The translations under genes were made by a program, and so were the position numbers. Below, piece after piece: positions 1,037 to 40,216 of a stretch of 40,216 bases of DNA. The notes below the pieces were generated by a model that was not told the origin of the DNA, searched no databases, and saw only the letters and a program-made list of their open reading frames with translations. Numbering within the stretch: the stretch's first letter is position 1; each line of letters begins with the position of its first letter. Source of the DNA: a virus. The stretch spans positions 1-40,216 of the IMG/VR virus record IMGVR_UViG_3300005295_000040, one strand, 5' to 3'.

Positions 1037-1680
1037 GCGATTTCAATTCCAATGCAAAACCCGTCCCACCCGATACTCTGATCGACGACCTCAACCCGTC
1101 GCGCTTTCTCAAGCCTACCGACCTGACCGAGCGCTGGCATGTGCAGAGTCTGACAGTCACGATCTCCCGGCTGTCCTATGAGGATACGTGGCCATCGATG
1201 CAGGACATCGACCCGCGGACCCGTAAGCCGAAGGTGAAGGTTGCGCCGGTGCTCTACTTCAACAGCAAGAACGGCGGTGAGTTCCCGCGCGGAATGCTTC
1301 TGGGTGCAGGCGAAAACATCACGGCACTCAAAGCCGCGACCGGAGCCAGGACCGTGGGAGAGATGGTGGGCAAGCGGATCACGATCATCGTCGGAGAGTT
1401 CCGACACAAGCCGGTCCTTCGCATTTCGCCGGAGACGCCACCCGCAGCATCGACGCCTGCGGCGGTACGGTCCAACGGCAACGAGCAGGCATCGAAGCCT
1501 AGCCTCGCAGATCTGCGTGAGCAACTCAAAACCGGCGATGTGATCGTTGCCTATTCGGGTATCACGAAGATGGCAGGCATCGACCAGCCGACCGCACAGG
1601 CGATCCTTCGTGAATGCCTCGGCGATTTCGAGACGGCGTTCGACAAGATCGCCGAGCAATACGCCAAAGTGCTGAGCTAA
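1033..1680 (+). CDS. Phage early protein, DNA-metabolism neighbourhood (unknown function)
   Basis: This 215-residue protein has an N-terminal domain of about 130 residues with the pattern LNPSRFLKPTDL, SLTVTISRLSYED, and later GARTVGEMVGKRITIIVGE. I associate that pattern with phage proteins found beside recombination and replication genes, probably a small beta-rich fold. A linker rich in Pro/Ala follows, then a C-terminal helical part (ADLREQLKTGDVIVAYSG to the end). ATG 1033 is chosen because it overlaps the upstream stop; the frame is open further upstream but that would run through the previous gene. A role in DNA replication or recombination is inferred only from context. Confidence 0.65.
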   Translation: MSDFNSNAKPVPPDTLIDDLNPSRFLKPTDLTERWHVQSLTVTISRLSYEDTWPSMQDIDPRTRKPKVKVAPVLYFNSKNGGEFPRGMLLGAGENITALKAATGARTVGEMVGKRITIIVGEFRHKPVLRISPETPPAASTPAAVRSNGNEQASKPSLADLREQLKTGDVIVAYSGITKMAGIDQPTAQAILRECLGDFETAFDKIAEQYAKVLS

Positions 1681-4003: not shown

Positions 4004-4522
4004 ATGTCACGACGATTTGAAGCAACGCAAGTGACCACGATCAAGGACCTACAAAGGGTCATGACGAAGATCAACGCGACCTCGCTACGCATTGAGCAGG
4101 ATGTGATGAAAGGTGGTGTCAAGATCACCTTCGACCGGGCAGGGAAGCGCTATGTCCGTGAGTGCAGCAAGTATGAGAACTCACTGGATAACCTGCGGGT
4201 GATCGGCTTGCAGATCGAATACCTCTACCGCGCTCTGGAAGTCTATGCTGAAGATATTGTCGAGACCTCGTTTGATATCGAGTTTGACCGGATCTTCAAC
4301 GGCTTCCTTGCCACGCCGGATGATACCGCTCTCCTGTTAGGAGATGGAACTGCGCAATGGTACGAGATCCTCGGAGTGAAAGCGGACGCGAGCCGGGAAG
4401 ATATTCGTAGTGCCTTCCGCGCCTTGTCACTCGTTCACCATCCCGACCGGGGAGGCCGCGATGAAGATTTCAAACGGATCAATGAGGCCTTTCGTCAGGG
4501 GATGAAGGTCGCGAAGAAGTAA
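4004..4522 (+). CDS. J-domain (DnaJ-like) protein with C-terminal J domain
   Basis: This 172-residue protein has an uncharacterised N-terminal domain of about 115 residues and a C-terminal J domain: WYEILGVKADASREDIRSAF, then the diagnostic H146-P147-D148 in VHHPDRGG, then KRINEAFRQGM. J domains stimulate the ATPase of DnaK and direct it to a substrate. The N-terminal part (KITFDRAGKRYVREC, then NLRVIGLQIEYLYRALE) is also found in other phage proteins and probably supplies the targeting function. Lambda needs DnaJ and DnaK to start its initiation complex, so a phage-encoded J protein near an initiator gene is suggestive. A role in assembly or host takeover is equally possible. Confidence 0.8.
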   Translation: MSRRFEATQVTTIKDLQRVMTKINATSLRIEQDVMKGGVKITFDRAGKRYVRECSKYENSLDNLRVIGLQIEYLYRALEVYAEDIVETSFDIEFDRIFNGFLATPDDTALLLGDGTAQWYEILGVKADASREDIRSAFRALSLVHHPDRGGRDEDFKRINEAFRQGMKVAKK

Positions 4523-4653: not shown

Positions 4654-4695
4654 CCTGCCGAGTGTAGGGAGTTCCGCAACCTACACCCAGGCAGG
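4654..4695 (+). promoter_or_regulatory. Long hairpin with ribosome-site mimic in its loop
   Basis: CCTGCC (4654-4659) pairs with GGCAGG (4690-4695) and GTGTAGG (4662-4668) pairs with CCTACAC (4680-4686). The loop holds GAGTTCCGCAA. The 11-mer GGAGTTCCGCA at 4668-4678 is repeated exactly at 4715-4725 as the ribosome site and start of the next gene. No T tract follows. A role in translational control of the gene at 4725 is plausible. Confidence 0.5.
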
Positions 4696-4724
4696 CAAGT
4701 GAATTGTACTAAAAGGAGTTCCGC

Positions 4725-5189
4725 ATGAACGCAGAAACAATCACACCCTTTTTATTTATCGGCATGTTGATTGCCAGCGTGATCTCCATCGGCTGGCCAC
4801 GCTATCGCACTGACCCGATGGAAGACCAAACACCGCCGAAGCAACATGACCGGCAATCGCAGTATACCGGACCGGCGATCAACCTGCATGTCAGGGACGA
4901 GCAATGGCTGGAAGGTTACAAGGCTTATATCGCAGACAACGCCGCTCCAAACTCACTGGCCGATGCGATGGTCTTGCAGGCAGTGCGTGACATCGTGAAC
5001 AACGAAGCTCTCAGTAAGGCGGCGCAGTATCACATGCTGGACGCGTTGCAGATGCAGGTATGGAACGCACACCCACGCGGGATGGCAGCCGAGGTGATCG
5101 AGACGATCAACGACGAGATGGAGACGCTGGATCATCCTGACTGGCATGGAAGACATGGAAGATTCGTGAGCGTGAAACGAGGTGAGTAA
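4725..5189 (+). CDS. Hypothetical protein with N-terminal membrane anchor, 154 aa
   Basis: Residues 7-25 (ITPFLFIGMLIASVISIGW) are a probable membrane anchor, and the remaining ~125 residues are soluble and polar, rich in helix-forming stretches (LADAMVLQAVRDIVNNEA, then KAAQYHMLDALQMQVW). The start is supported by AAGGAG at 4713. It ends overlapping the next membrane gene by one base. The pair may form a membrane-associated complex. No family recognised. Confidence 0.6.
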   Translation: MNAETITPFLFIGMLIASVISIGWPRYRTDPMEDQTPPKQHDRQSQYTGPAINLHVRDEQWLEGYKAYIADNAAPNSLADAMVLQAVRDIVNNEALSKAAQYHMLDALQMQVWNAHPRGMAAEVIETINDEMETLDHPDWHGRHGRFVSVKRGE

Positions 5190-5731: not shown

Positions 5732-5741
5732 GCACACAAGC

Positions 5742-5828
5742 CCCCTCCCCTGCTGAGTTCAACTCTCAGTATCACCCAGCTACGGTACGAGTGAGCGAGT
5801 GAGAGCGAGAAGTGAGCTGGGGGAGGGG
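5742..5828. other. Structured intergenic region with nested inverted repeats
   Basis: This gene-free stretch (5732-5994) starts with CCCCTCCCC (5742-5750), which is complementary to GGGGAGGGG (5820-5828). Between them are a hairpin CTGAG/CTCAG (5753-5757, 5765-5769) and CCCAGCT (5775-5781) pairing with AGCTGGG (5815-5821). The outer and inner arms overlap at the G run, so alternative folds are possible. Between the arms lies a purine-rich GAGTGAGC/GAGTGAGA direct repeat. It could be a regulatory RNA, a terminator variant or an origin element; the sequence alone does not decide. Confidence 0.4.
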
Positions 5829-5874
5829 AGCGGGCACAGCAGGAACACGGTTCACGACCTGCCCTTTCGACTGG

Positions 5875-5893
5875 CTGTTACAGAAAATAACAG
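5875..5893. repeat. Inverted repeat, operator-like
   Basis: CTGTTA (5875-5880) and TAACAG (5888-5893) are inverted around a 7-base A-rich spacer. It lies about 100 bp upstream of the gene at 5995, in the only gene-free gap of this part of the map, so it may be a protein-binding site. Confidence 0.35.
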
Positions 5894-5994
5894 GCACTCG
5901 GAAAATTGAAAATAGGCGAGCCGGCCTAATTTGCCTTCGAGCAAAAACCGACCAGCAGAAAGACGCCTGACGCGATTTGAGAAAGTGATGAACT

Positions 5995-16404: not shown

Positions 16405-19400
16405 ATGCCAAGCAATAAGGAAATGCGCATCCAGCTTGAGAAGCGCGGCATCAACGCCGACAACCTCAAGAAGTGGCAACTCTACAACAGCGAAGATCTG
16501 ATCCGGCAGCATAAGCAAGACGTGCGGCTGGAGCAAAAGGGGCTTCTGGATTACCAGACTGCCGGAATGTCGACTGCTCAGATCGCACAGAAGTATGTCG
16601 ACGCGCGGGTCAAGGTCAATCCTGACTGGTTCCAGCAGCACTACGCAGGGATACAGCAGCCACCGACTCAGGCGACTCAGGTGCAGGCAGCCCCGACGCC
16701 GGTCAAGTTCGCGACGGTAGAAGCTGTGAAGACGGGCGGTGCAGGCTGGACTGACGTCGAAACCACCGAGCGGGCGAAGCTCCTCAAAGACCCCTCTTTC
16801 TACAAGTCCGGGCAGATCACACAATTTCCTGTTGCCGTGCGTGATCAGATCCTGAATGATCCGAACTTCGACTGGAAGCAGTTGCCCCGCTGGCAGAAGA
16901 CATACTATGGCATCATCTCCAACCCCAAGATCATGGCCAGTCCCATGGCTTTGGCGGGTGCTCATGCCGGTGGGATCTTCGGTCCTGTTGGAAAGGTTGC
17001 AGGTGCGGCTGTTGGTTATGGACTGGGACTTGTCGGCGGGCAACAGTATGACCCGACGCGGGGAGTCTTCGAGCAGCCAAGCGCAACTGCCGGACTGATG
17101 GCTGTCCTGAACAAGCTCTCAGAAGGAGCAGAGCAGACGGTCGGGTACACAGCTCAGGCACTGGACGCAGCAATTGCCGGAGCGCAGGGGAATCAGGAAG
17201 CGGCAGCTAGCGCCAATAAGATGCTGACAGATCCTGCCTACCGGAAGGCGACTTGGGAAGCGGGACGCTTTGCCTACGAAGCCAGCGACTTCATGGGCGC
17301 ACGCAACTGGATACCAGGGATCGCGAGACTCTTGGGAGATGAAACCGCCGTCCTCGCCAAGCCTGGGCAGGACTTCGTGGTCGGCGCATCTCAGCCGGTG
17401 GATCGAGCCGTAGCGCAGGGGTTCAACCCGGTGACCGGCAACTTCTACGATACCAACGATGCTATGGGGATCTTGCAGGAAGCCAGGCTCACCATCCATA
17501 AGGCGATCATCAATGGTGAGGACCCTCGGGATGTGGTTCGGCAAATCATGGGCGAGCAGGGGCAGTATGTGGGCGCGACCGTGGCAGACTTTGCCGGACA
17601 AGCAGCCATTGACCCGCTGGAATACCTGCCGGAAGTGACAGCCAAGACGACCGGCAAACTCGCCAGCCTCATGGGGAACGAGACTGCGGCGCGTGCCTTC
17701 CTGGAATCCAAAGCGCCGGTCGAGGGATTGCGGAGGTATCAGACACTGGTGCAAACCGGAGATGTGGCGCCAGGCTTCGACTATACCAAGATGAGTTCAG
17801 TAAGCAGATGGGTCGCAGGTCTCAACGAAGCCGGGCAGATCAAGAGCGGACCGCTCACACAGACCGGACTCCTGGACAAGCCAGCCAAACAGGCCGGGCT
17901 ATGGTCGAAGCTCAAAGACGACTGGGCGGCACTGACACCGGAGGCACGCGCACGCGAAGGGGCGAACATGTTCTATAACAACCTCGGCGCGCTCCTCTCC
18001 ACCTTCGACGATCCGCATGAGATCAGTAAATTTATGGGGTCACTCTCGAAGGGTGACATGAAGGTCTGGGCAGAGATGGGCGGCAAGATCGCCCAAAGCC
18101 CGGAGTGGTACACGATCCTGCCCGCGCTCAAGGACTTTGATAGCGCCAAGGTCGACGGACCGCTGGCAGCCTGGGATCTTGCACAACCCCATAGGGAGAG
18201 ACTCCTTAGGATCGCCGATGTGTTGGGCGAGGAGCCAGGCACATTCATCGAAGACCTAGCCAAGCGCGGCACAGATGAGCAGGACTTCCAGAGGCTAACC
18301 GAACGGCTGCAACAATCCACAGACCCGGGTGCCAAGGAACTGCTTGCCGACATGCAGCGCGGCGATTTCACCAAAGACAATCTCAAGCAGATGGTGGATG
18401 TCTTCACTGGTGACGGGGCATTGCCGTGGCATGTCGACCAATGGAAAGCCTCGATGATGGATGCCCTCGGTTCTCACTTCGACGAATGGGCAGTCGAGAA
18501 GCTAGGGTTGGGGCGCGATACGCCGGAAGCGAAAGCCTTCTTCAGGACCACACATCTTTTGAAGAGCGCGCAATCTGTCCTCCTGTTGGGCGGCAGTCCG
18601 GGCTATGCTTTGCAGAACGGCATGTCGAACATGGTCCATAGAGCCGTGACCGGCATCTATGGATACATGACCCCGCGGCAGATCGACACATGGCTCGACC
18701 GATTCGGAGTGACACCCGCCAGACTGGAAGAGGGAGTTGGGATCGGCGGTGAAGTAGAACAGGCCGCATCAAAGAGCAGCGTCAAAACAGAAGCGATTCA
18801 AGCGGAAGTCAAGGGAAACCAGAATGACGCCCTGGGTCGAGCGCAGCGGATAGTCTCCGCCATCGGCAGGGGCATGCCGTTCAATAAGTTATCTTCCGCC
18901 TTCGAACAACTGGAGGGGAAGAACGGCTACATGATCGCCATGCGGGATATGTGGTCGCAGACGTGGCGCCGCGGGCGCGGCTTTGCCGAAGTGACACCGG
19001 ATCTGAAGGGACACCTGGAGCAGGCAGGCATCAACCCGAACAGCATTTATTCTCTGATCGAGGCGGGCATGAACAAGGATGAGATCGAGCGCTTTGTCTT
19101 CCAGCGACAGTCAGGGATCATGTCTCGGACTCTGGTCAACGACGCAGCCCAGAAGATGGGAATGCCGTCCACCCAGGCAGCCAGGTTATTGGAGAAGGTC
19201 GGCGTGCTGGATGAGCTGGATCGCGTCCTTGCCAAAGCCGATACCCCCGACCGTGTACGAGGCGCGTTCAGGTCTGCGATCAGGAAGGCTCAGGACTTCC
19301 AAGACATGCAGACCGCCCGCGATCTTAGGACAATGGCAGAGCAGGTCACGAATAAGGTTCAGGCAGAAGGACCGGCAGCCGCATTGGATGTAGTGCAGCG

Positions 19401-22400
19401 GGTGAACGGGGAATACTTCGACGCATGGCTGGATCACTACTCACGGTTCGGGGAGACGTTCGAGGAATTGCGCGGCATCCCCGACGCTAGCCTACGCAGC
19501 AAAGCGATTGACCTGAATTACCAGATTTCCGATCAGGAGTTCAGGCGGATCAATGCGAGGACGGCGGCGAACTATCAGGGCATATTCGAAGCATGGGGCA
19601 AGTCTCGTAACCCAAAGGCGATGGAGATACTCGCCGCCGTCGCGCAGTCCGATGCAGCCATGAAGGAAGCCTACGACTTCATGAGAAGTGAGCGCAGATC
19701 TTTCTTCGATAGGCTACGAGAGAACCCGGATTCCATTCCTCCTGGAGAGTGGGAAGCCTCCCAGAAGAAGGTCGACCAGGCATTCGAGCGGGCCTTCAAG
19801 TCCAAGGGCAACGCCGAAAAGAATATGGGGAATGCACTGGGCAAGATCAACGAGGAGATGTACGGTCCGGCCGCCGGAGAAGCCGCCCGCAAATGGTGGG
19901 AGGATTACACAAAGTTCTCTGACGACATCGTGAAGCGTGAGCGCGACTTCCGTAAATCCATCCAGTCACTGACGCGTGATCAGAGGGAAGCGGCAAAGCA
20001 GAAGTATTACCAGACGGAGAAGGTTGCCCAGATCGCAGAGCTTGAGCGCATCAACCAGGAGGGGATACAGAGATTGGAACGCGTCATCAAGAACGGGAAG
20101 GGCGGGCAATCAGCAATCAGCGGTCAGCCTTCAGGTGGCACTCCCCCGCCCTCCCCCGGTGAAGCTATACGCACAGGTGGGGGAGCTGAGGAAATCAATA
20201 GTCTGATCGCCGACGCAGAACAGCGCACTGCCCGCGACGTTGCAGACAAAGCTGAGAAGGTGAAATCCGTTTGGGATGTGGCAGAGGAGTATTCCCGCGT
20301 TGGACTGCCCTACGACCGGACCATCCTGCAAGATCGCTTTGCCCTGATCGGTGCGCTCAGGAAAGAAGAGTACGGCGGGATCGCAGACCTGACCGGACTG
20401 GATGACCCGCGTCTGACGCCGGAGATGGTGCGGGATGTGATGGACAAGCGAGCCGAAGCCAAGAAGGTGGAAGAGTCCAACAAGGTAGACCTTGCCAGGG
20501 CGAAGGCAGAACAGGCCGCCAGGAAAACAGAAGGGATCTTAGGTCCCGACATCCATGACGACACATCCATTCTCAAGGCCATCTCCGAACATGGCGGCTT
20601 GCAGATCGATCAGGCTCTTGACTTGACCGGCGAGAAGCGACCGCGCTCCATGCCCGGAGTGTTCAGGAAGAAGGGAATCGGCTTGGATGAAATGGCGCGC
20701 ATGCTGGCTGATGACGGCTACCCAATCGACTTGAACTCTCCCGACGACCCAGGCGGAATCAGGCAGGCGACTGAACTTCTTACCCGCGCACGCCAGGGAG
20801 AGAAGATCTATCCAGCCGGTCACGACTACGAAGCCGCGCTCAAGCGAGCAGAGACGGCTTTCGCCGAAGAGATGGCAGCGCAGGAACCCGTCTTCGATAT
20901 GGCACTCTGGCAGAAGGATCTTGAAGACGCCACCTCGACCGGCGACCTGACGAAGATGTATGAGAAGATCGGCGAGCTGCCAGAGGAGCTGACCAACGAG
21001 CGCGCCCCCTCCGGTGAGACCTGGACAGATTGGATGAGCCGGATCGCGGATGAGACAGTGGCGCGTGTGGAGGATGCAACCAGAGAGCAGGCTGTTGCCG
21101 ACACGATGAGCCGGATCGCCGATGAGACCAACTCCATGGAAGAGCGCGGGCAGGCAATGCAGACGAAGCGTATCCTGGAAGAGAAGTTCAGGGACGTCTT
21201 TGGGCTGACCGATGAGCAGGCCGCCGCCTACATGGAGTTGAGTGAAAGTGTTTCAGAATGGTACATGCGTATAACAGGAGAGAGCGGCGATGCTTTCTAT
21301 TCCAGGTACTATGAAGATGTGGTCTCAGGCGGGGAAGGGGATCTCTTCCAGATTGAGCCAGTCAACAGAAGGATGACACCGCAGGAAGTCAGCGACTATG
21401 CGCGGGCACTGGTAAGAAGTGGAGCCGACGAGCTGAGGCGGGCAGTAGCTAATGAGCCGAACAAAGCCGACCGCGTTGCCATCCTGACCGAAGCGCACAA
21501 CCTCAATCCGAAGCTAGCTGAGCAGGTTGCTAGGCAGTCGCTCAGTGTTCTCTTCCAGGAAGTGTGGCACGGCAGCCCGTATAAGTTTAACAAGTTCACC
21601 CTCGACAAGATCGACACCGGCGAAGGTGCACAGGTCTATGGATGGGGGCTGTACTTTGCTGAAGAGAAACAGGTCGCAGAGTATTATCGACATGGTTTAT
21701 CTCTGAACAAGATGGACCCGGAAACACGGAAGCTGTACGACTACTGGGAAGTAGTGGATAAGAAAAAGGAACTTGTCGACGCATTGCGAGAAAAGCAATC
21801 ACAGCGCCCAAGCGACAGGCAGTTGCAGACGCGCTTGAAAGTAGCCGAGTCTGAATACAACTATATACTCGAATCAGCCCAGGGGATTGGAGAGCGCCCA
21901 CCAGAAGCTGGACAGCTTTATCGCGTTCATGTCCCTGACGAGAATTATCTGTTGTGGGATCAGCCATTGAGCGAGCAGCCGCAGGTGGTACAGGATGCTG
22001 CGAGGAAATGGTACGACAGTCAACCTGGGTGGAAGGGTGCACCGCCTGAAATGTTCGAACGGTTCCTGGCAGCCACAAAAGGAAAAGATTTTTACGACCG
22101 ACTAGCCGAAGCTCACGGAACCGAGAAGACATTTACCGGAGGCTGGACTGGGAAAGTTAAGAGTGATAAAGCCGCATCTCTTGCTTTGAACGAAGCAGGT
22201 GTCAGTGGCATCAAGTATCTGGACGAAGCCAGCCGCGGCGCGGGCGAAGGCACATATAACTTTGTGATCTTCGACGACAACGCCACCAAGATTCTGGACA
22301 CCTACTACCAGATCGCCAATGGGACCGGCGCAAAGCGCGGCGCCGTCACCTTCGGACCAGACGGCATCAAGGCAACCATCCACGCCTTCGAAGCCAGGAA

Positions 22401-25400
22401 CTTCTCGACCCTGATCCACGAGAACGCCCATGTCTTCCGGCGCGTGCTGGCAGATGTGGCGACCCGCACCGACAACCAGAAGATCAAAGCCGACCTTGTC
22501 ACCATCGAAGAATGGGCAGGGGTCAGGGATGGCGAGTGGACGCGTGAGCACGAGGAGAAGTTTGCACGCGGCTTCGAGAAGTACATTGCCGATGGAGAAG
22601 CGCCGACGCCCAAGCTGAAGCGTGCCTTCGAGAGTTTCAAGAGCTGGATGCTTCAAGTTTATAAGCAGATCACCGGAAGCGCTATCGATGTGCAGTTGAC
22701 CGACGACGTAAGGAGTGTATTCAACCGGATGCTTGGGGAAGAGAAGCCGATAGAGAAGATGCTCAGCGACCGCAGACAACCCGCACACAAGCAACTCAGG
22801 GACGCATGGGGCACCCTCGACCCGACCCAGCAGCAGGAGGTCATGGATTGGATCTTCAAGAAGACGCTGGTGGATCCACTCTCAGGACTGGAAACGCTGG
22901 TTGCAAAGGGCATCGAGGGAGCCAAGCCCGCTGGATGGGTGGAGGCCATCTCCGACCTGAACGCCCTGACTGCTATCAATAATGCCTGGGGGCACGGGGG
23001 GGGCGACCAGGTCATCAAGGGGATCGGCGGGATCGCAAAGGTGGAAGTGGAGAAGGTCGGCGGGCGCGCCTTCCGTGTCGGCGGCGATGAGTTTTCCTAT
23101 TGGTTCCCCAGTGAAGAAGCCGCACGCACCGCGCTTGACGCCATCGACAAAGGAGTCCGGGAACATGTCTTCACCATCGGCGACACGAAGCGCAAGGGCT
23201 TCACCATCTCCTATGGAATCGGCGACAACCTACCCAGCGCCGACAAGTCCCTGTATGACGACAAGTCCCGGCGCATTGAACTAGGGCAACGCTCGACGGT
23301 CCGTGATCAAATGCCGCCCTCGGTCCAGACGTTGTTCCAGGCAGACTACCCAATGGGCACAATGGAGGACGCCTCAGGCTTCAAGGCAGATAGTGAATGG
23401 CAGGACGCGGGCTGGAAGTCGCGCGTCAGACCTCTGCTCGACGCGATGCAGACCGTCGCACTCGACAAGCTCACCAATGAGCGCCCGCTGGACGGAGCAT
23501 ATAAGGACATGTCAGCCGAGGGACAGCAGCTCCTCCGGCAGTATGTTCGTCAGGTACAAAACGACATGGGCGCGGTGAAGAACTCGACCATCAAATGGGG
23601 AGAGTCACAGCGCGACTTCGCCATGTTGAATTACAACAGGCGGTACGGGTTCGACCGTGGACTGGAAGCCGTCGCACCCTACCAGTTCTATTACACCCGC
23701 AGCCTCATGACCTGGGCGGCGCGCGGTATCGACAAGCCTGCCTGGTTCGCCAACTACGCCCGCATTCGTAATCTCCAGAACAAGCATGAACGAGATGTGC
23801 CTGAGCGTTTGAGAAACAAGTTCCGCATCCCCGCGCCGTGGCTTCCCAAATGGATGGGCGACGCGTTGTATATCGACCCGCTTTCCAATCTCTTCACGCC
23901 TGCCAATTTCCTGAGACCCTTCGAGACGATGATGAGGGATAAGAATTATCAGGTGATCGAAGCGGAAAGAGTTTTGCAGGAGTGGGCACAGGATGGACAG
24001 GCAACCGACGACGCAATCGCCGAAGCCGCACAGAGTAGAAGCGGCAGCCTGTGGGAACGGGCACTGGCTGAGGCAGGCACGAGGAGAGAGTCGGAGATCT
24101 CCAACCCGTTTGATTTCATGGCTACGATGTTTGGTCCCGCATGGTATCTCTCCACTCCACTCAATCTGTTGGGTGCCAAGGTTCCATTCCTGAGTAAGGG
24201 AGAGCCGAACAAAGTCACGACGACCCCACTCCTGAACACTGCCCGCGCGCTCGAAGCCACCACCAAAGGAACCTGGGCGGAGCCGATAGGACAGTTCGCC
24301 GCGCTCCTGGGGAAGCCCGAAGAGATGCTGCGAAAGAAAGCTGGACTGCCGGAGTTCGGCGAGTTCGGCGATTACTATGTCGACCGGCAGCTATCCAACA
24401 TGGTAGCAGAAGGTGCAATCACCAGCCAGCAGGCACAGATGGCAATGATCGAGCGACAAGGCGCGCTCTTCGACCAGGCACGCGAGCGGGTAAAGCTGGA
24501 GCTTGCGATGAGGACGCCCCTTGCCGGTGCGGTACTAGCTGGCACACATGAGGGAGTCGGCGCAGGTGTGAAGTCTTTCTTGCCGTCGCTGTTCGGGTCG
24601 GGGTTGTTACCAGCCGGTGAGCTGGAGTATCGCGGCTTGAAGGGTGAATGGAACGAAGCCTGGAAGAAGTACGACGGTGGCGATAAGACCGCGATCAATG
24701 GCTTCTTCTCAGACCACCCCGAATATGAAGCCTACCTTGCGAAAGGCAAGCCGCCCGAGGAGCGACTGCGATCTTTCCTGATCGGTAACATCTGGGATGC
24801 GTACATGGGCTTGGGTCCCACCAACCAGAAACAGGCCCGCTCTGAAATGGGCGACGACTTCAACCGTTCCTTCCTGGACAAGGAGACTCGCTCTTACGAT
24901 AGCCTGGACGTGAAGACCCTGACGCAGTGGGCGCAGCTCCTGGGCGGCATGATCCCGAAGACTCCGGAGACCGCGCCAGTGCTGGCGGTGCCGGCAGCCG
25001 AGCGACCCAAGCTCAACCTCTACGACCGGCAGGTGACGAAGATCACGGATCAATTCTTCAACCAGCGCACCAAGTATTACGGCAACTATTATGAGCTGGA
25101 GCAAGGCTACTATTCATTGCCAAAGAGCCAGCGCGCCAGTTATCTCTTGAAGAACCCTGAGCTGAGGAAGTATTGGGATTGGAAGGATAAATGGATGAAG
25201 AGCTACCCAGATCTGGAACCGATATTTAAGGGGCAGGTTTTCAAACGGGTGGATACTTCGACATGGGCACCGGGTCTCCTCGATTACGTCACGACCTATG
25301 CCTACAGCGGGAAGAAGTTGCCGAAGGGAGCCTACAAAGCCCTGGAGCAGCAGTGGATTATGGAGGGTCGACCGATGGACAATCTCAATTCGTGGCTCAA

Positions 25401-25440
25401 TTCTCAGGTTGTTCCCGCCTTACTTTATGGCGGTCAATAA
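16405..25440 (+). CDS. Giant polyvalent protein (ART, zincin HENAH, GGDEF, LPD-like domains), 3011 aa
   Basis: This single uninterrupted frame contains several modules. Residues ~177-215 are a Gly/Ala-rich hydrophobic stretch (glycine-zipper-like). About 725-760 has SPGYALQNGMSNMV, a motif typical of large polyvalent proteins. About 1535-1575 has a duplicated M-S-R-I-A-D-E-T segment. Residues 1719-1968 match the ADP-ribosyltransferase domain of polyvalent proteins (EVWHGSPYKFNKF, YGWGLYFAEE, YNFVIFDDN). H2005-E-N-A-H2009 is a zincin-type metal motif. Residues 2157-~2290 are a GGDEF domain (DPLSGL start, G2226-G-D-E-F2230). About 2407-2600 resembles a C-terminal polyvalent-associated domain (NYNRRYGFDRGLE). 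Such proteins are thought to be packaged and delivered with the DNA to act on the host. It lies between portal and capsid genes, where a large ejection protein would be expected. Confidence 0.75.
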   Translation: MPSNKEMRIQLEKRGINADNLKKWQLYNSEDLIRQHKQDVRLEQKGLLDYQTAGMSTAQIAQKYVDARVKVNPDWFQQHYAGIQQPPTQATQVQAAPTPVKFATVEAVKTGGAGWTDVETTERAKLLKDPSFYKSGQITQFPVAVRDQILNDPNFDWKQLPRWQKTYYGIISNPKIMASPMALAGAHAGGIFGPVGKVAGAAVGYGLGLVGGQQYDPTRGVFEQPSATAGLMAVLNKLSEGAEQTVGYTAQALDAAIAGAQGNQEAAASANKMLTDPAYRKATWEAGRFAYEASDFMGARNWIPGIARLLGDETAVLAKPGQDFVVGASQPVDRAVAQGFNPVTGNFYDTNDAMGILQEARLTIHKAIINGEDPRDVVRQIMGEQGQYVGATVADFAGQAAIDPLEYLPEVTAKTTGKLASLMGNETAARAFLESKAPVEGLRRYQTLVQTGDVAPGFDYTKMSSVSRWVAGLNEAGQIKSGPLTQTGLLDKPAKQAGLWSKLKDDWAALTPEARAREGANMFYNNLGALLSTFDDPHEISKFMGSLSKGDMKVWAEMGGKIAQSPEWYTILPALKDFDSAKVDGPLAAWDLAQPHRERLLRIADVLGEEPGTFIEDLAKRGTDEQDFQRLTERLQQSTDPGAKELLADMQRGDFTKDNLKQMVDVFTGDGALPWHVDQWKASMMDALGSHFDEWAVEKLGLGRDTPEAKAFFRTTHLLKSAQSVLLLGGSPGYALQNGMSNMVHRAVTGIYGYMTPRQIDTWLDRFGVTPARLEEGVGIGGEVEQAASKSSVKTEAIQAEVKGNQNDALGRAQRIVSAIGRGMPFNKLSSAFEQLEGKNGYMIAMRDMWSQTWRRGRGFAEVTPDLKGHLEQAGINPNSIYSLIEAGMNKDEIERFVFQRQSGIMSRTLVNDAAQKMGMPSTQAARLLEKVGVLDELDRVLAKADTPDRVRGAFRSAIRKAQDFQDMQTARDLRTMAEQVTNKVQAEGPAAALDVVQRVNGEYFDAWLDHYSRFGETFEELRGIPDASLRSKAIDLNYQISDQEFRRINARTAANYQGIFEAWGKSRNPKAMEILAAVAQSDAAMKEAYDFMRSERRSFFDRLRENPDSIPPGEWEASQKKVDQAFERAFKSKGNAEKNMGNALGKINEEMYGPAAGEAARKWWEDYTKFSDDIVKRERDFRKSIQSLTRDQREAAKQKYYQTEKVAQIAELERINQEGIQRLERVIKNGKGGQSAISGQPSGGTPPPSPGEAIRTGGGAEEINSLIADAEQRTARDVADKAEKVKSVWDVAEEYSRVGLPYDRTILQDRFALIGALRKEEYGGIADLTGLDDPRLTPEMVRDVMDKRAEAKKVEESNKVDLARAKAEQAARKTEGILGPDIHDDTSILKAISEHGGLQIDQALDLTGEKRPRSMPGVFRKKGIGLDEMARMLADDGYPIDLNSPDDPGGIRQATELLTRARQGEKIYPAGHDYEAALKRAETAFAEEMAAQEPVFDMALWQKDLEDATSTGDLTKMYEKIGELPEELTNERAPSGETWTDWMSRIADETVARVEDATREQAVADTMSRIADETNSMEERGQAMQTKRILEEKFRDVFGLTDEQAAAYMELSESVSEWYMRITGESGDAFYSRYYEDVVSGGEGDLFQIEPVNRRMTPQEVSDYARALVRSGADELRRAVANEPNKADRVAILTEAHNLNPKLAEQVARQSLSVLFQEVWHGSPYKFNKFTLDKIDTGEGAQVYGWGLYFAEEKQVAEYYRHGLSLNKMDPETRKLYDYWEVVDKKKELVDALREKQSQRPSDRQLQTRLKVAESEYNYILESAQGIGERPPEAGQLYRVHVPDENYLLWDQPLSEQPQVVQDAARKWYDSQPGWKGAPPEMFERFLAATKGKDFYDRLAEAHGTEKTFTGGWTGKVKSDKAASLALNEAGVSGIKYLDEASRGAGEGTYNFVIFDDNATKILDTYYQIANGTGAKRGAVTFGPDGIKATIHAFEARNFSTLIHENAHVFRRVLADVATRTDNQKIKADLVTIEEWAGVRDGEWTREHEEKFARGFEKYIADGEAPTPKLKRAFESFKSWMLQVYKQITGSAIDVQLTDDVRSVFNRMLGEEKPIEKMLSDRRQPAHKQLRDAWGTLDPTQQQEVMDWIFKKTLVDPLSGLETLVAKGIEGAKPAGWVEAISDLNALTAINNAWGHGGGDQVIKGIGGIAKVEVEKVGGRAFRVGGDEFSYWFPSEEAARTALDAIDKGVREHVFTIGDTKRKGFTISYGIGDNLPSADKSLYDDKSRRIELGQRSTVRDQMPPSVQTLFQADYPMGTMEDASGFKADSEWQDAGWKSRVRPLLDAMQTVALDKLTNERPLDGAYKDMSAEGQQLLRQYVRQVQNDMGAVKNSTIKWGESQRDFAMLNYNRRYGFDRGLEAVAPYQFYYTRSLMTWAARGIDKPAWFANYARIRNLQNKHERDVPERLRNKFRIPAPWLPKWMGDALYIDPLSNLFTPANFLRPFETMMRDKNYQVIEAERVLQEWAQDGQATDDAIAEAAQSRSGSLWERALAEAGTRRESEISNPFDFMATMFGPAWYLSTPLNLLGAKVPFLSKGEPNKVTTTPLLNTARALEATTKGTWAEPIGQFAALLGKPEEMLRKKAGLPEFGEFGDYYVDRQLSNMVAEGAITSQQAQMAMIERQGALFDQARERVKLELAMRTPLAGAVLAGTHEGVGAGVKSFLPSLFGSGLLPAGELEYRGLKGEWNEAWKKYDGGDKTAINGFFSDHPEYEAYLAKGKPPEERLRSFLIGNIWDAYMGLGPTNQKQARSEMGDDFNRSFLDKETRSYDSLDVKTLTQWAQLLGGMIPKTPETAPVLAVPAAERPKLNLYDRQVTKITDQFFNQRTKYYGNYYELEQGYYSLPKSQRASYLLKNPELRKYWDWKDKWMKSYPDLEPIFKGQVFKRVDTSTWAPGLLDYVTTYAYSGKKLPKGAYKALEQQWIMEGRPMDNLNSWLNSQVVPALLYGGQ
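21033..21127 (+). repeat. 72-bp-spaced direct repeat within the giant gene
   Basis: Bases 21033-21055 and 21105-21127 are identical except for one position (GATGAGCCGGATCGC core). They encode two copies of M-S-R-I-A-D-E-T, 24 residues apart, in a helical region. A recent local duplication is the simplest explanation. Confidence 0.7.
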
Positions 25441-26275: not shown

Positions 26276-26352
26276 GAACCTTTCGCCGCGCCCTCTTCCT
26301 GCTTTGGTTCGTGTTAATATTCACGCCCGTGATTTGGGATTGTCTCAGATGA
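26272..26352 (+). CDS. Candidate 26-aa membrane peptide
   Basis: ATG 26272 overlaps the DUF5662 stop (ATGA). It encodes MRTFRR followed by one continuous hydrophobic segment (ALFLLWFVLIFTPVIW). The arrangement suggests a translationally coupled membrane peptide, but it is very short and has no strong ribosome site of its own. Speculative. Confidence 0.3.
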   Translation: MRTFRRALFLLWFVLIFTPVIWDCLR

Positions 26353-26486
26353 ATTCATGTCCCACACTTCTCTCCATCCCGACCTACGACTATATGCTCG
26401 TAAAGCTTTGGATGCAGTCCACTCACAGCGCAGGTCAACGGCGCGAGATTGAAAGCAGGAAGCGCCTGTTACAGCGGAGTAACACC

Positions 26487-26532
26487 CAACAAAAACACAA
26501 CTGCCAGCTTGGCTACAGACCTCTGGCAGTTG
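26487..26532 (-). terminator. Intrinsic terminator of the minus-strand RNA
   Basis: On the minus strand CAACTGCCAG (26532-26523) and CTGGCAGTTG (26507-26498) form a perfect 10-bp stem with a 15-base loop, followed by TGTTTTTGTTG. On the plus strand the flanks have no T tract, so the terminator is specific to minus-strand transcription. Confidence 0.75.
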
Positions 26533-26653
26533 CATCGACGGACAGCACTATCATGCACGCCACATGAGGAAGTGCAGGAGTTTCGAGAACAGCGCGGCGT
26601 CGGTGTTCTCTAGGCGGTGTACAGGCTCACCTACTCTACAGGAATAGCCGCCG
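26488..26653 (-). ncRNA. Candidate small structured RNA on the minus strand, ~165 nt
   Basis: This is the only minus-strand unit with its own promoter and terminator in the virion half of the map. A TTGAAT-N17-TATAAT promoter at 26687-26659 would start the RNA near 26653. The RNA can form several stems: GAGUAG/CUAUUC at 26631-26636/26642-26647, UGUUCUC/GAGAACA at 26604-26610/26585-26591, and UGCAC/GUGCA at 26554-26558/26572-26576. GGCGG/CCGCC also pairs near the 5' end. It ends in a perfect 10-bp terminator stem followed by a T-rich tract. An open frame passes through it without a plausible start, so a non-coding role fits better. No family recognised: it does not look like tRNA, tmRNA, 6S or RNase P RNA. 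Confidence 0.6.
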
Positions 26654-26658
26654 CCCTG

Positions 26659-26687
26659 ATTATAGATGGGTTGAGTCGAAAATTCAA
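26659..26687 (-). promoter_or_regulatory. Minus-strand sigma70 promoter for the small RNA
   Basis: Reading the minus strand, TTGAAT (26687-26682) is followed after exactly 17 bases by a consensus TATAAT (26664-26659). A short inverted repeat, GTTGA...TCAAC, overlaps the -35 region and could be an operator. Confidence 0.65.
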
Positions 26688-26806
26688 CGGCTGAAATTTG
26701 CAGTCTTGACAGGCGATTCTGTTTGCGGTAATCTTGCGTTCGGCGGTGTTCAGCCTGCCCCCCTCAGGCCAGAGCCGCCACTTTACTGCGATGCTTTATT
26801 TTAGAT

Positions 26807-26853: not shown

Positions 26854-26882
26854 TTGACAACCACGCCATATTCGGCGATACT
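26854..26882 (+). promoter_or_regulatory. Promoter of the adenine methylase
   Basis: Consensus TTGACA (26854-26859), a 17-base spacer, then GATACT (26877-26882, four of six -10 bases). The methylase start lies 19 bases after the -10, so the leader is short. It gives the methylase transcription independent of the structural operon. Confidence 0.6.
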
Positions 26883-26901: not shown

Positions 26902-27609
26902 ATGAACTATAAAGGCGGTAAGAACGCAAGCGGCATCTACCAGCGGATCATCAATCAGATCCCACCCCACACAACCTATATCGAACCCTTCCTGGGATCA
27001 GGCGCGATCATGCGCTTGAAGAAACCGGCGATCGTAAGCATCGGCATAGACGTCGATATGAACGTTATCAAACAATGGGAGGACTGGGGTGCCGGGCACC
27101 TCGCCACGCATGGCGATGCGATATCGTTTCTCAGTTCTTACGACTGGCAGGGCGACGAGTTTGTTTACTGCGACCCACCCTACATCATGTCGACCCGGTC
27201 ACATCAGAAGCCGCTCTACAGGCATGAGTTCTGTACAGAGGAAGAGCACGCCGAACTTTTGAAAGTGTTGAAATCCCTGCCTGCCATGATCGCAATCTCC
27301 GGCTACAAGTCCGGTCTCTACGATAAGATGCTCAAGGATTGGCGCGTGATTTCCTACCAGACCCGGACGCGTGGAGGCACGGTGGTCACGGAATATTTAT
27401 GGATGAACTACCCGCAGCCGTTTGAACTCCACGACTATTCCTATCTCGGCGACAATTACCGAGAGAGGGAGACTATCAGGAAGCAGCAGAAGCGATGGAG
27501 ACGGATGCTGGCAGAGATGCCCGCGCTCAAACGGCTTGCGCTGTTGGATGTGATCCAATCTGCTAGGCAAATTGAGCAGAGAGATTCCGGAAGGCACCAC
27601 CACGAATGA
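26902..27609 (+). CDS. DNA adenine methyltransferase (Dam-type)
   Basis: This 235-residue enzyme has the N-terminal Y-K-G-G-K-N motif (SAM binding), I-E-P-F-L-G-S-G-A-I at residues ~32-41, and D91-P-P-Y94 catalytic motif IV followed by YIMSTRS. The rest (EEEHAELLKVLKSLPAMIAI and so on) is the usual C-terminal part. It is an N6-adenine methylase of the alpha group. ATG 26902 is chosen because GGAGGAGA lies just upstream and because an upstream in-frame ATG overlaps the promoter. It probably protects phage DNA from host restriction or regulates timing. Confidence 0.9.
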   Translation: MNYKGGKNASGIYQRIINQIPPHTTYIEPFLGSGAIMRLKKPAIVSIGIDVDMNVIKQWEDWGAGHLATHGDAISFLSSYDWQGDEFVYCDPPYIMSTRSHQKPLYRHEFCTEEEHAELLKVLKSLPAMIAISGYKSGLYDKMLKDWRVISYQTRTRGGTVVTEYLWMNYPQPFELHDYSYLGDNYRERETIRKQQKRWRRMLAEMPALKRLALLDVIQSARQIEQRDSGRHHHE

Positions 27610-27780: not shown

Positions 27781-27816
27781 CCCGCCAACTTAACATTCTT
27801 GCCGACAGACTTACGA

Positions 27817-27849
27817 GCGGGCACCCTAACCAGGTGCCGCTTTTTGTTT
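27817..27849 (+). terminator. Leader terminator (possible attenuator) before the scaffold gene
   Basis: GCGGGCACC (27817-27825) pairs with GGTGCCGC (27833-27840) with one bulged base, around CTAACCA, followed by TTTTTGTTT. It lies between the promoter start (near 27787) and the scaffold gene (27873), so it would stop a leader RNA of about 60 bases unless antiterminated or read through. It could also end upstream transcription from the methylase. Confidence 0.75.
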
Positions 27850-27872
27850 GCCAGCAATGGAGGAACATCACA

Positions 27873-39694: not shown

Positions 39695-40216
39695 AAAAGA
39701 TCAATTTGCAAAAGGGAGAGATCCTAGTCCTACGGACATCAGACAAAGACGGCAGGTCTTACGGTGATTTTCAATACCCCAAGAAGGGCGAGGTTGTTGC
39801 TCCTGATTGGGATGGGCAGCCTGAATGCGGAGGCGGTCTGCACGGCCTGCCGCGCGGATGTGGCGACGCAACTCTCATGAACTGGGAGGATGGAAACACG
39901 GCACAGCTAATCGCCGTCAACCCATCTGAGAATTATTTCGAGTTTGCTGGTAAGTGCAAATTCAAGAGCGGGCGTGTGGTTTTCTCCAAGATCAATGGAC
40001 TTCGCGAGGCGATTGATATTCTGAGCGTAGCTTACCCGGATATGCCGGTTGTCGGCCGCACTGCAACGGCTGGTAATCGTGGCACTGCAACGGCTGGTGA
40101 CGCTGGCACTGCAACGGCTGGTGACGCTGGCACTGCAACGGCTGGTTACGCTGGCACTGCAACGGCTGGTGACGCTGGCACTGCAACGGCTGGTTACGCT
40201 GGCACTGCAACGGCTG
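39691..40216 (+). CDS. Tandem-repeat protein, N-terminal part (runs off contig, continues at 1)
   Basis: The first ~120 residues form a unique domain with ILVLRTSDKDGRSYGDFQYP, PECGGGLHGLPRGCGDAT and FEFAGKCKFKSGRVVFSKIN. From residue ~123 the repeats T-A-T-A-G-x-x-G begin, with variable pairs NR, DA, DA, YA, DA, YA before the contig ends. The unique domain with CGGGLHG is shared by several phage and bacterial proteins that carry similar repeats. The circular continuation is at 1-347, giving one gene. Function unknown; the repeats resemble beta-solenoid turns. ATG 39691 overlaps the nuclease-like stop. Confidence 0.8.
   Translation, partial: MKKINLQKGEILVLRTSDKDGRSYGDFQYPKKGEVVAPDWDGQPECGGGLHGLPRGCGDATLMNWEDGNTAQLIAVNPSENYFEFAGKCKFKSGRVVFSKINGLREAIDILSVAYPDMPVVGRTATAGNRGTATAGDAGTATAGDAGTATAGYAGTATAGDAGTATAGYAGTATA
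40061..40216 (+). repeat. 24-bp tandem repeats (6 full units plus a partial)
   Basis: This is the right-end copy of the array, still repeating at the contig end. The variable positions are AATCGT, GACGCT, GACGCT, TACGCT, GACGCT and TACGCT. Assembly usually breaks at such arrays, so the true number of repeats is unknown. Confidence 0.95.

Follow-up and report, generated by a model that had tools for sequence, protein, structure and literature searches.

A predicted structured noncoding RNA gene with its own promoter and terminator, conserved among distantly related phages

The stretch of DNA analysed here, an IMG/VR virus record of 40,216 bases that is referred to below as the window, contains a short minus-strand segment that begins with a promoter and ends with a terminator, and the question that it raises is whether this segment is a gene and, if so, how its product might act. 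The promoter that had been claimed on inspection, TTGAAT-N17-TATAAT of the sigma-70 type, is present at bp 26687-26659 (minus strand), as is the claimed terminator, in which a perfect 10-bp stem (26532-26523 paired with 26507-26498) encloses a 15-nt loop and is followed by the T-rich tail TGTTTTTGTT (bp 26488-26497, minus strand). The predicted structured noncoding RNA between them is approximately 165 nt in length (bp 26490-26655, minus strand), its 5' start having been placed from the -10 box (near 26653-26655) and its 3' end from the T tract (26490). When the entire window was scanned for a promoter matching at 9 or more of 12 positions, with a stem of 8 bp or longer and a T tract 60-400 nt further on (criteria that were set after the feature had been seen), this was the single cassette found, while none was found in 60 Markov shuffles. 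The sequence from 26655 to 26490 folds at -63.3 kcal/mol (z = -2.33), with one of 200 shuffles equally good. One explanation for such a segment is that a promoter-like and a terminator-like sequence lie together by chance and have no function: promoter-like matches are common (five in 3.3 kb) and this feature was picked by eye.

The first-pass annotation assigned the RNA to no family, and the Rfam comparison agrees with it. At gathering score, Rfam 15 gave no matches over the window, and permissive thresholds gave only sub-gathering noise for the window and for three of the loci compared with it (L022, L003 and L075). The best sub-threshold match for the L075 RNA, the rnk leader (E = 0.019), was rejected because the similarity was of the terminator type only. 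ARAGORN identified no tRNA or tmRNA genes in the window. We predict that this RNA is a new noncoding RNA family, hitherto undescribed, of the known phage small-RNA kind.

Standard searches with the region or the RNA were uninformative. BLAST against phage and plasmid collections returned short chance matches only, and blastn and nhmmer searches with the RNA among 60 related loci recovered nothing but the same virus (L002, L005, L014, L019 and L184 are one contig, identical to the window here, and were left out as non-independent). A short match in MT839284.1 was considered as a homologue and discarded, as the covariance model did not confirm it. There was no match to the RNA in 400 Chloroflexota genomes, a search that had no positive control in this group and says little. 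The promoter proved to be the more useful query. An inverted repeat, AAATTTCAGccgTTGAATTTT, lies over the -35 box (bp 26679-26699, minus strand) and, by comparison with L022, L075 and L185, may be operator-like or promoter-associated. The window sequence AAATTTCAGccgTTGAATTTT-N14-TATAAT has as its counterpart AAAATTCAGggaTTGAATTTT-N14-TATACT at the same place and on the same strand in L022, where the repeat is perfect; it is also present in L075 (AAAATTCAGcggTTGAATTTT), with equal spacing to the -10 box, and L022 and L075 share the architecture TTGAATTTT-N14-TATACT. IMG/VR was scanned with a pattern describing the promoter and the overlapping inverted repeat (TTCANNNNTTGAATTTTN{13,15}TATANT), which gave at least 120 matches.

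L075 was recovered by this pattern alone. It is a 46-kb phage that has a 75%-identical cytosine methyltransferase in common with the window and otherwise shows remote similarity to it. Its promoter (AAAATTCAGcggTTGAATTTT-N14-TATACT) is followed by approximately 180 nt and a terminator, and the local alignment of these 180 nt to the window RNA covers the full length with a score of 32.5, which was reached by none of 3000 shuffled pairs and by one of 3000 random window segments. A covariance model made from the window RNA alone detected L075 with an E-value of 3.6e-8 in 877 kb. When the 118 promoter-pattern matches listed were ranked by the likeness of their downstream sequence to the window RNA, L075 was first (32.5) and the L022 copy next (17.0); with the L022 RNA as query, L075 was again first among the same 118 (18.5, the next being 12.5). 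A model of the window and L075 together then matched L020 at the syntenic place and strand with 12.4 bits, the E-value being 0.11 over 71 kb and 4e-4 when only the 291-base interval is considered; no -35 box is recognisable for the L020 RNA. The same model matched L022 weakly (E = 0.018 locally), and downstream of the L022 promoter is an RNA of strong fold (z = -3.61) that has a 13-bp terminator of its own. In the corresponding position, L003 has a folded minus-strand RNA (z = -3.44) and terminator. Its sequence is similar to that of L022 (9 of 2000 shuffles were as good); the L003 RNA was unmatched by the covariance model and has no recognisable promoter. Model calibration was short and all of these E-values are rough. 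Three further loci (L103, L082 and L185) carry the promoter motif, and an RNA of the window family was recognised in none of them. Based on sequence comparison, the predicted family comprises the window, L075 and L020, probably L022 and possibly L003.

Compensatory change in the predicted helices is further evidence that these RNAs are related by structure. In the alignment of the window with L075, 94.4% of cells pair and 13 of 36 pairs are changed on both sides, a number reached by none of 500 shuffles; with the structure moved by one to three columns as a control, zero or one pair was double-changed. With L020 added, 18 of 31 pairs are changed on both sides, the slid controls overall giving 0-2. 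These counts come from few sequences (the window, L075 and L020) in alignments made to fit the model, a procedure with some bias towards the structure, and the model behind the window-L075 alignment was built with the window sequence only. The structure was carried over from this single-sequence model because MAFFT alignments misplace the stems by one base. The homologues that had been proposed as a check thus occur in other phages (L075 and L020) and show strong covariation. Chance pairing of two signals is contradicted both by this covariation and by the independent recovery of a full-length homologue through the promoter pattern, and we consider it extremely improbable; a genuine structured noncoding RNA gene is by contrast highly probable in our judgement.

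The first-pass annotation described at least three hairpins. Comparison refines these to four consensus helices (P1-P4), whose compensatory changes taken together are above control, the double changes being concentrated in P2, P3b and P4. P1 (bp 26613-26655, minus strand; GGCGG 26655-26651 with CCGCC 26617-26613, GACGG/CCGUC in L075) is weakly supported, as double changes affect one of its five pairs, and alone is not above shuffles. When the window RNA is folded by itself, the minimum-energy structure departs from the comparative one in the long-range pairing of the 5' end. P2 (bp 26585-26610, minus strand) is a 7-bp hairpin in which five of seven pairs are changed on both sides between the window and L075, and P3 (bp 26545-26575, minus strand) consists of P3a (5 bp) and P3b (6 bp). 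The P2 loop contains ACGCC (26600-26596) and the apical loop of P3 contains GGCGU (26561-26557). These are perfect complements, expected by chance in about 1% of RNAs, and both are kept in the window, L075 and L020. This suggests that the two loops may form a kissing-loop contact, which is suggested rather than proven because the loop letters do not vary. P4 (bp 26498-26532, minus strand) is the 10-bp terminator stem itself. Seven of its 10 pairs are changed on both sides over the window, L075 and L020, and the conserved apex, GGU[C/U]...AGCC, is by this comparison more than a plain terminator needs.

Could the promoter instead serve a leaderless mRNA for a short peptide? In L185, the inverted-repeat promoter (bp 1571-1620, plus strand) stands upstream of a different, protein-coding gene that starts approximately 7 nt past the -10 box in leaderless-like fashion, and in L022 a similarly spaced ATG opens a frame of 36 codons. 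Three observations stand against such a peptide. First, the window, L075, L020 and L003 have no start of this kind. Second, in L003 an indel and a stop interrupt the minus-strand frame seen in L022. Third, the changes are compensatory in the stems and not synonymous in codons. No conserved frame runs through the RNA on the minus strand when the homologues are compared, and no conserved protein reading through the region was found. We regard a leaderless mRNA as highly improbable. Because it is found before a protein gene in L185, the inverted-repeat element is not tied to the RNA.

The RNA lies between the gene for a 3011-aa giant virion protein and the scaffold and major capsid genes. The first-pass annotation placed it in a gap among virion genes; the interval is an accessory cassette of variable content rather than a break in an otherwise constant virion operon. 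L004 has nothing here, L003 has a 760-aa protein and an HNH endonuclease, L020 has a polysaccharide deacetylase and a methyltransferase, and the window has a DUF5662 protein, a small ORF and a methyltransferase. The last of these is a D12-class adenine DNA methyltransferase (bp 26902-27609, plus strand; Pfam PF02086, E = 1.8e-11) with 70% identity to that of L020 and 53% to that of L022. It adjoins the RNA in the window and L020 and is one gene away in L022. In these three phages the RNA belongs to an accessory cassette with a DNA methyltransferase close by; in L075 the RNA is elsewhere. The divergent methyltransferase gene has a promoter of its own (TTGACA-N17-GATACT, bp 26854-26882, plus strand) that is conserved at L020 13362 and L022 11830, standing before a small gene in L022.

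Several other features of this locus and genome were observed. A DNA element, TGTTAC-N5/6-GTAACAGGCGCTCCCTGC, is conserved on the RNA strand (window 26455-26484, L003 4287-4316 and L020 13167-13195, all minus; L075 1767-1795, plus), with a weaker copy at window 5876-5900 (plus strand). It is found just downstream of the RNA terminator in the window and L020, further downstream in L003 and upstream of the RNA promoter in L075, and is possibly an operator or recombination site. In L003, an inverted repeat (GTCACAGTTGC...GCAACTGTGAC, bp 4655-4732) upstream of the HNH endonuclease gene is perhaps the footprint of that gene's insertion. A strong plus-strand terminator is conserved in position directly before the scaffold gene (window 27795-27850, plus; L003 5265-5320, L004 4615-4670, L011 9175-9230, L012 7360-7410, L009 1900-1950 and L013 9262-9315), following the motif (A)CCGACAGA in most relatives. 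The giant virion protein (bp 16405-25440) contains a GGDEF (diguanylate cyclase) domain at residues 2183-2273 (Pfam, E = 5.4e-8) and matches ADP-ribosyltransferase-PolyVal weakly; the giant protein of L022 has the GGDEF motif too, and none was seen in the shorter protein of L020. The window major capsid protein has distant kin in Streptomyces phage Rowa, in Paenibacillus phages and at loci in three Chloroflexota assemblies. Elsewhere in the window are a phage protein with a DnaJ domain (bp 4004-4522, E = 1e-12), a protein with weak similarity to the palm and thumb of DNA polymerase beta (bp 1953-2513) and a long hairpin (CCCCCTCCCC...GGGGGAGGGG, bp 5740-5840) in a 264-bp intergenic region. A 24-bp tandem repeat is common to both ends of the record (bp 121-217 and 40058-40216), which may point to a circular or terminally redundant genome.

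The region had also been described as a 600-bp gap without a good gene. On the plus strand, however, a small convergent ORF of 72 aa (bp 26349-26567) overlaps the RNA 3' end by approximately 78 nt. It is similar to L003 4181-4333 and to L020 from 13054 onward: both share its 5' part, conservation does not extend to the portion that faces the RNA, and in L020 the frame is interrupted. Changes at the three codon positions number 6, 3 and 12 in comparison with L020, a third-position bias, and 16, 13 and 16 in comparison with L003, without such bias. By these patterns the ORF is probably a gene in its own right or what is left of one.

This overlap raises the possibility that the RNA, like the lambda OOP RNA that is antisense to cII (PMC12197685), silences the convergent gene in cis, its terminator also blocking antisense transcription into the late genes. 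The position of the terminator at or adjoining the 3' end of the convergent gene in L022, L003 and L075 is consistent with this. The overlap is only a few bases in L022 and L075, however, and the convergent neighbour is not constant among the members, being the small ORF in the window and a 99-aa gene or a tail gene in L022 and L075. Furthermore, the compensatory changes in P2-P4 keep the fold and not the sequence, while antisense pairing requires no conserved fold. We consider cis-antisense action decidedly unlikely. Because the convergent gene varies, action in trans is preferred, and we judge it to be probable.

A trans-acting RNA could base-pair with host mRNAs, whether in the Hfq-dependent manner or otherwise. 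The size, individual promoter and intrinsic terminator of the window RNA are typical of such sRNAs, and base pairing is the mode of many known phage sRNAs (PMC12197685). The window RNA appears to differ from this class in having no long conserved unpaired seed, its conserved unpaired letters being two mutually complementary loops. In addition, there was no excess complementarity to the translation starts of the phage itself, with 50 of 60 shuffles as good. We view base pairing with host mRNAs as rather unlikely. Since the two conserved loops complement each other and no antisense target is evident among the translation starts of the phage, a folded RNA that binds protein is slightly preferred, and we lean towards it with moderate confidence. 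The argument for protein binding is made from the conserved fold and the lack of an obvious antisense target among those translation starts.

On balance, we favour an autonomous, trans-acting structured RNA gene whose product is more likely to bind a protein than to base-pair. Of this, computation establishes the promoter, the terminator, the conserved fold, the occurrence in distant phages and the variability of the neighbours. Host RNA polymerase with its main sigma factor would transcribe the RNA independently of the opposite-running late operon, its timing depending on the factor that occupies the inverted repeat at the -35 box. The RNA would then act in trans as a folded molecule, most likely on a protein, for which it could be a decoy, an inhibitor or a scaffold, and this action would fall during host takeover. 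The gene itself appears to be mobile as an accessory cassette, usually in the vicinity of a protective DNA methyltransferase. Solitary DNA methyltransferases in phages are typically anti-restriction genes, and given this recurrent company an anti-defence role for the RNA is attractive but unproven. In its fullest form, that of a mobile counter-defence or host-takeover factor with a compact kissing-loop fold and a regulated promoter of host type that is carried beside an anti-restriction methyltransferase and inhibits a host protein, the proposal is speculative and should be regarded as doubtful.

To our knowledge, few phage noncoding RNAs are known outside of model phages, and most were found through expression. 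Here, one observation on raw sequence led by way of a promoter pattern to a family that shows covariation between distant phages. The outcome is a defined structural hypothesis (a P2-P3 loop contact and a conserved P4 apex) that is testable with a 170-bp synthetic gene, and models R1 and R2 together with the promoter pattern allow others to collect the family.

Phage RNAs that counter a protein-RNA host defence system have a precedent in the ToxI-like RNA mimics of phage PhiTE (PMC3475682). The PhiTE RNA copies a host antitoxin RNA, whereas the window RNA matches no Rfam model. GOLLD and ROOL, noncoding RNAs of phages and prophages whose function is unknown, have kissing loops and a covariation-supported structure (PMC12286853). 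The window RNA shares with them its phage origin and covariation-supported structure, although kissing loops are only suggested here; they are several hundred nt in length and are often near tRNA islands, while the window RNA is approximately 165 nt, has no Rfam match and is found in a window without tRNA genes. Phage small RNAs with their own promoter and terminator are already known, including OOP, sar, aQ, PreS and VpdS (PMC12197685). Lambda OOP, sar and aQ are, like the window RNA, short, opposite to the main operon, equipped with a promoter and terminator of their own and able to overlap a convergent 3' end. In contrast to these, the window RNA has a fold kept by compensatory changes and a convergent gene that varies, rather than a constant target. 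PreS, VpdS, 24B_1, IpeX and AgvB (PMC12197685) show no sequence relation to it in Rfam or the phage collection; they resemble it in size class, in being phage-encoded and in being partly independent transcription units. Where these RNAs have an exposed seed, the window RNA appears to have a loop-loop complement and a conserved apex instead.
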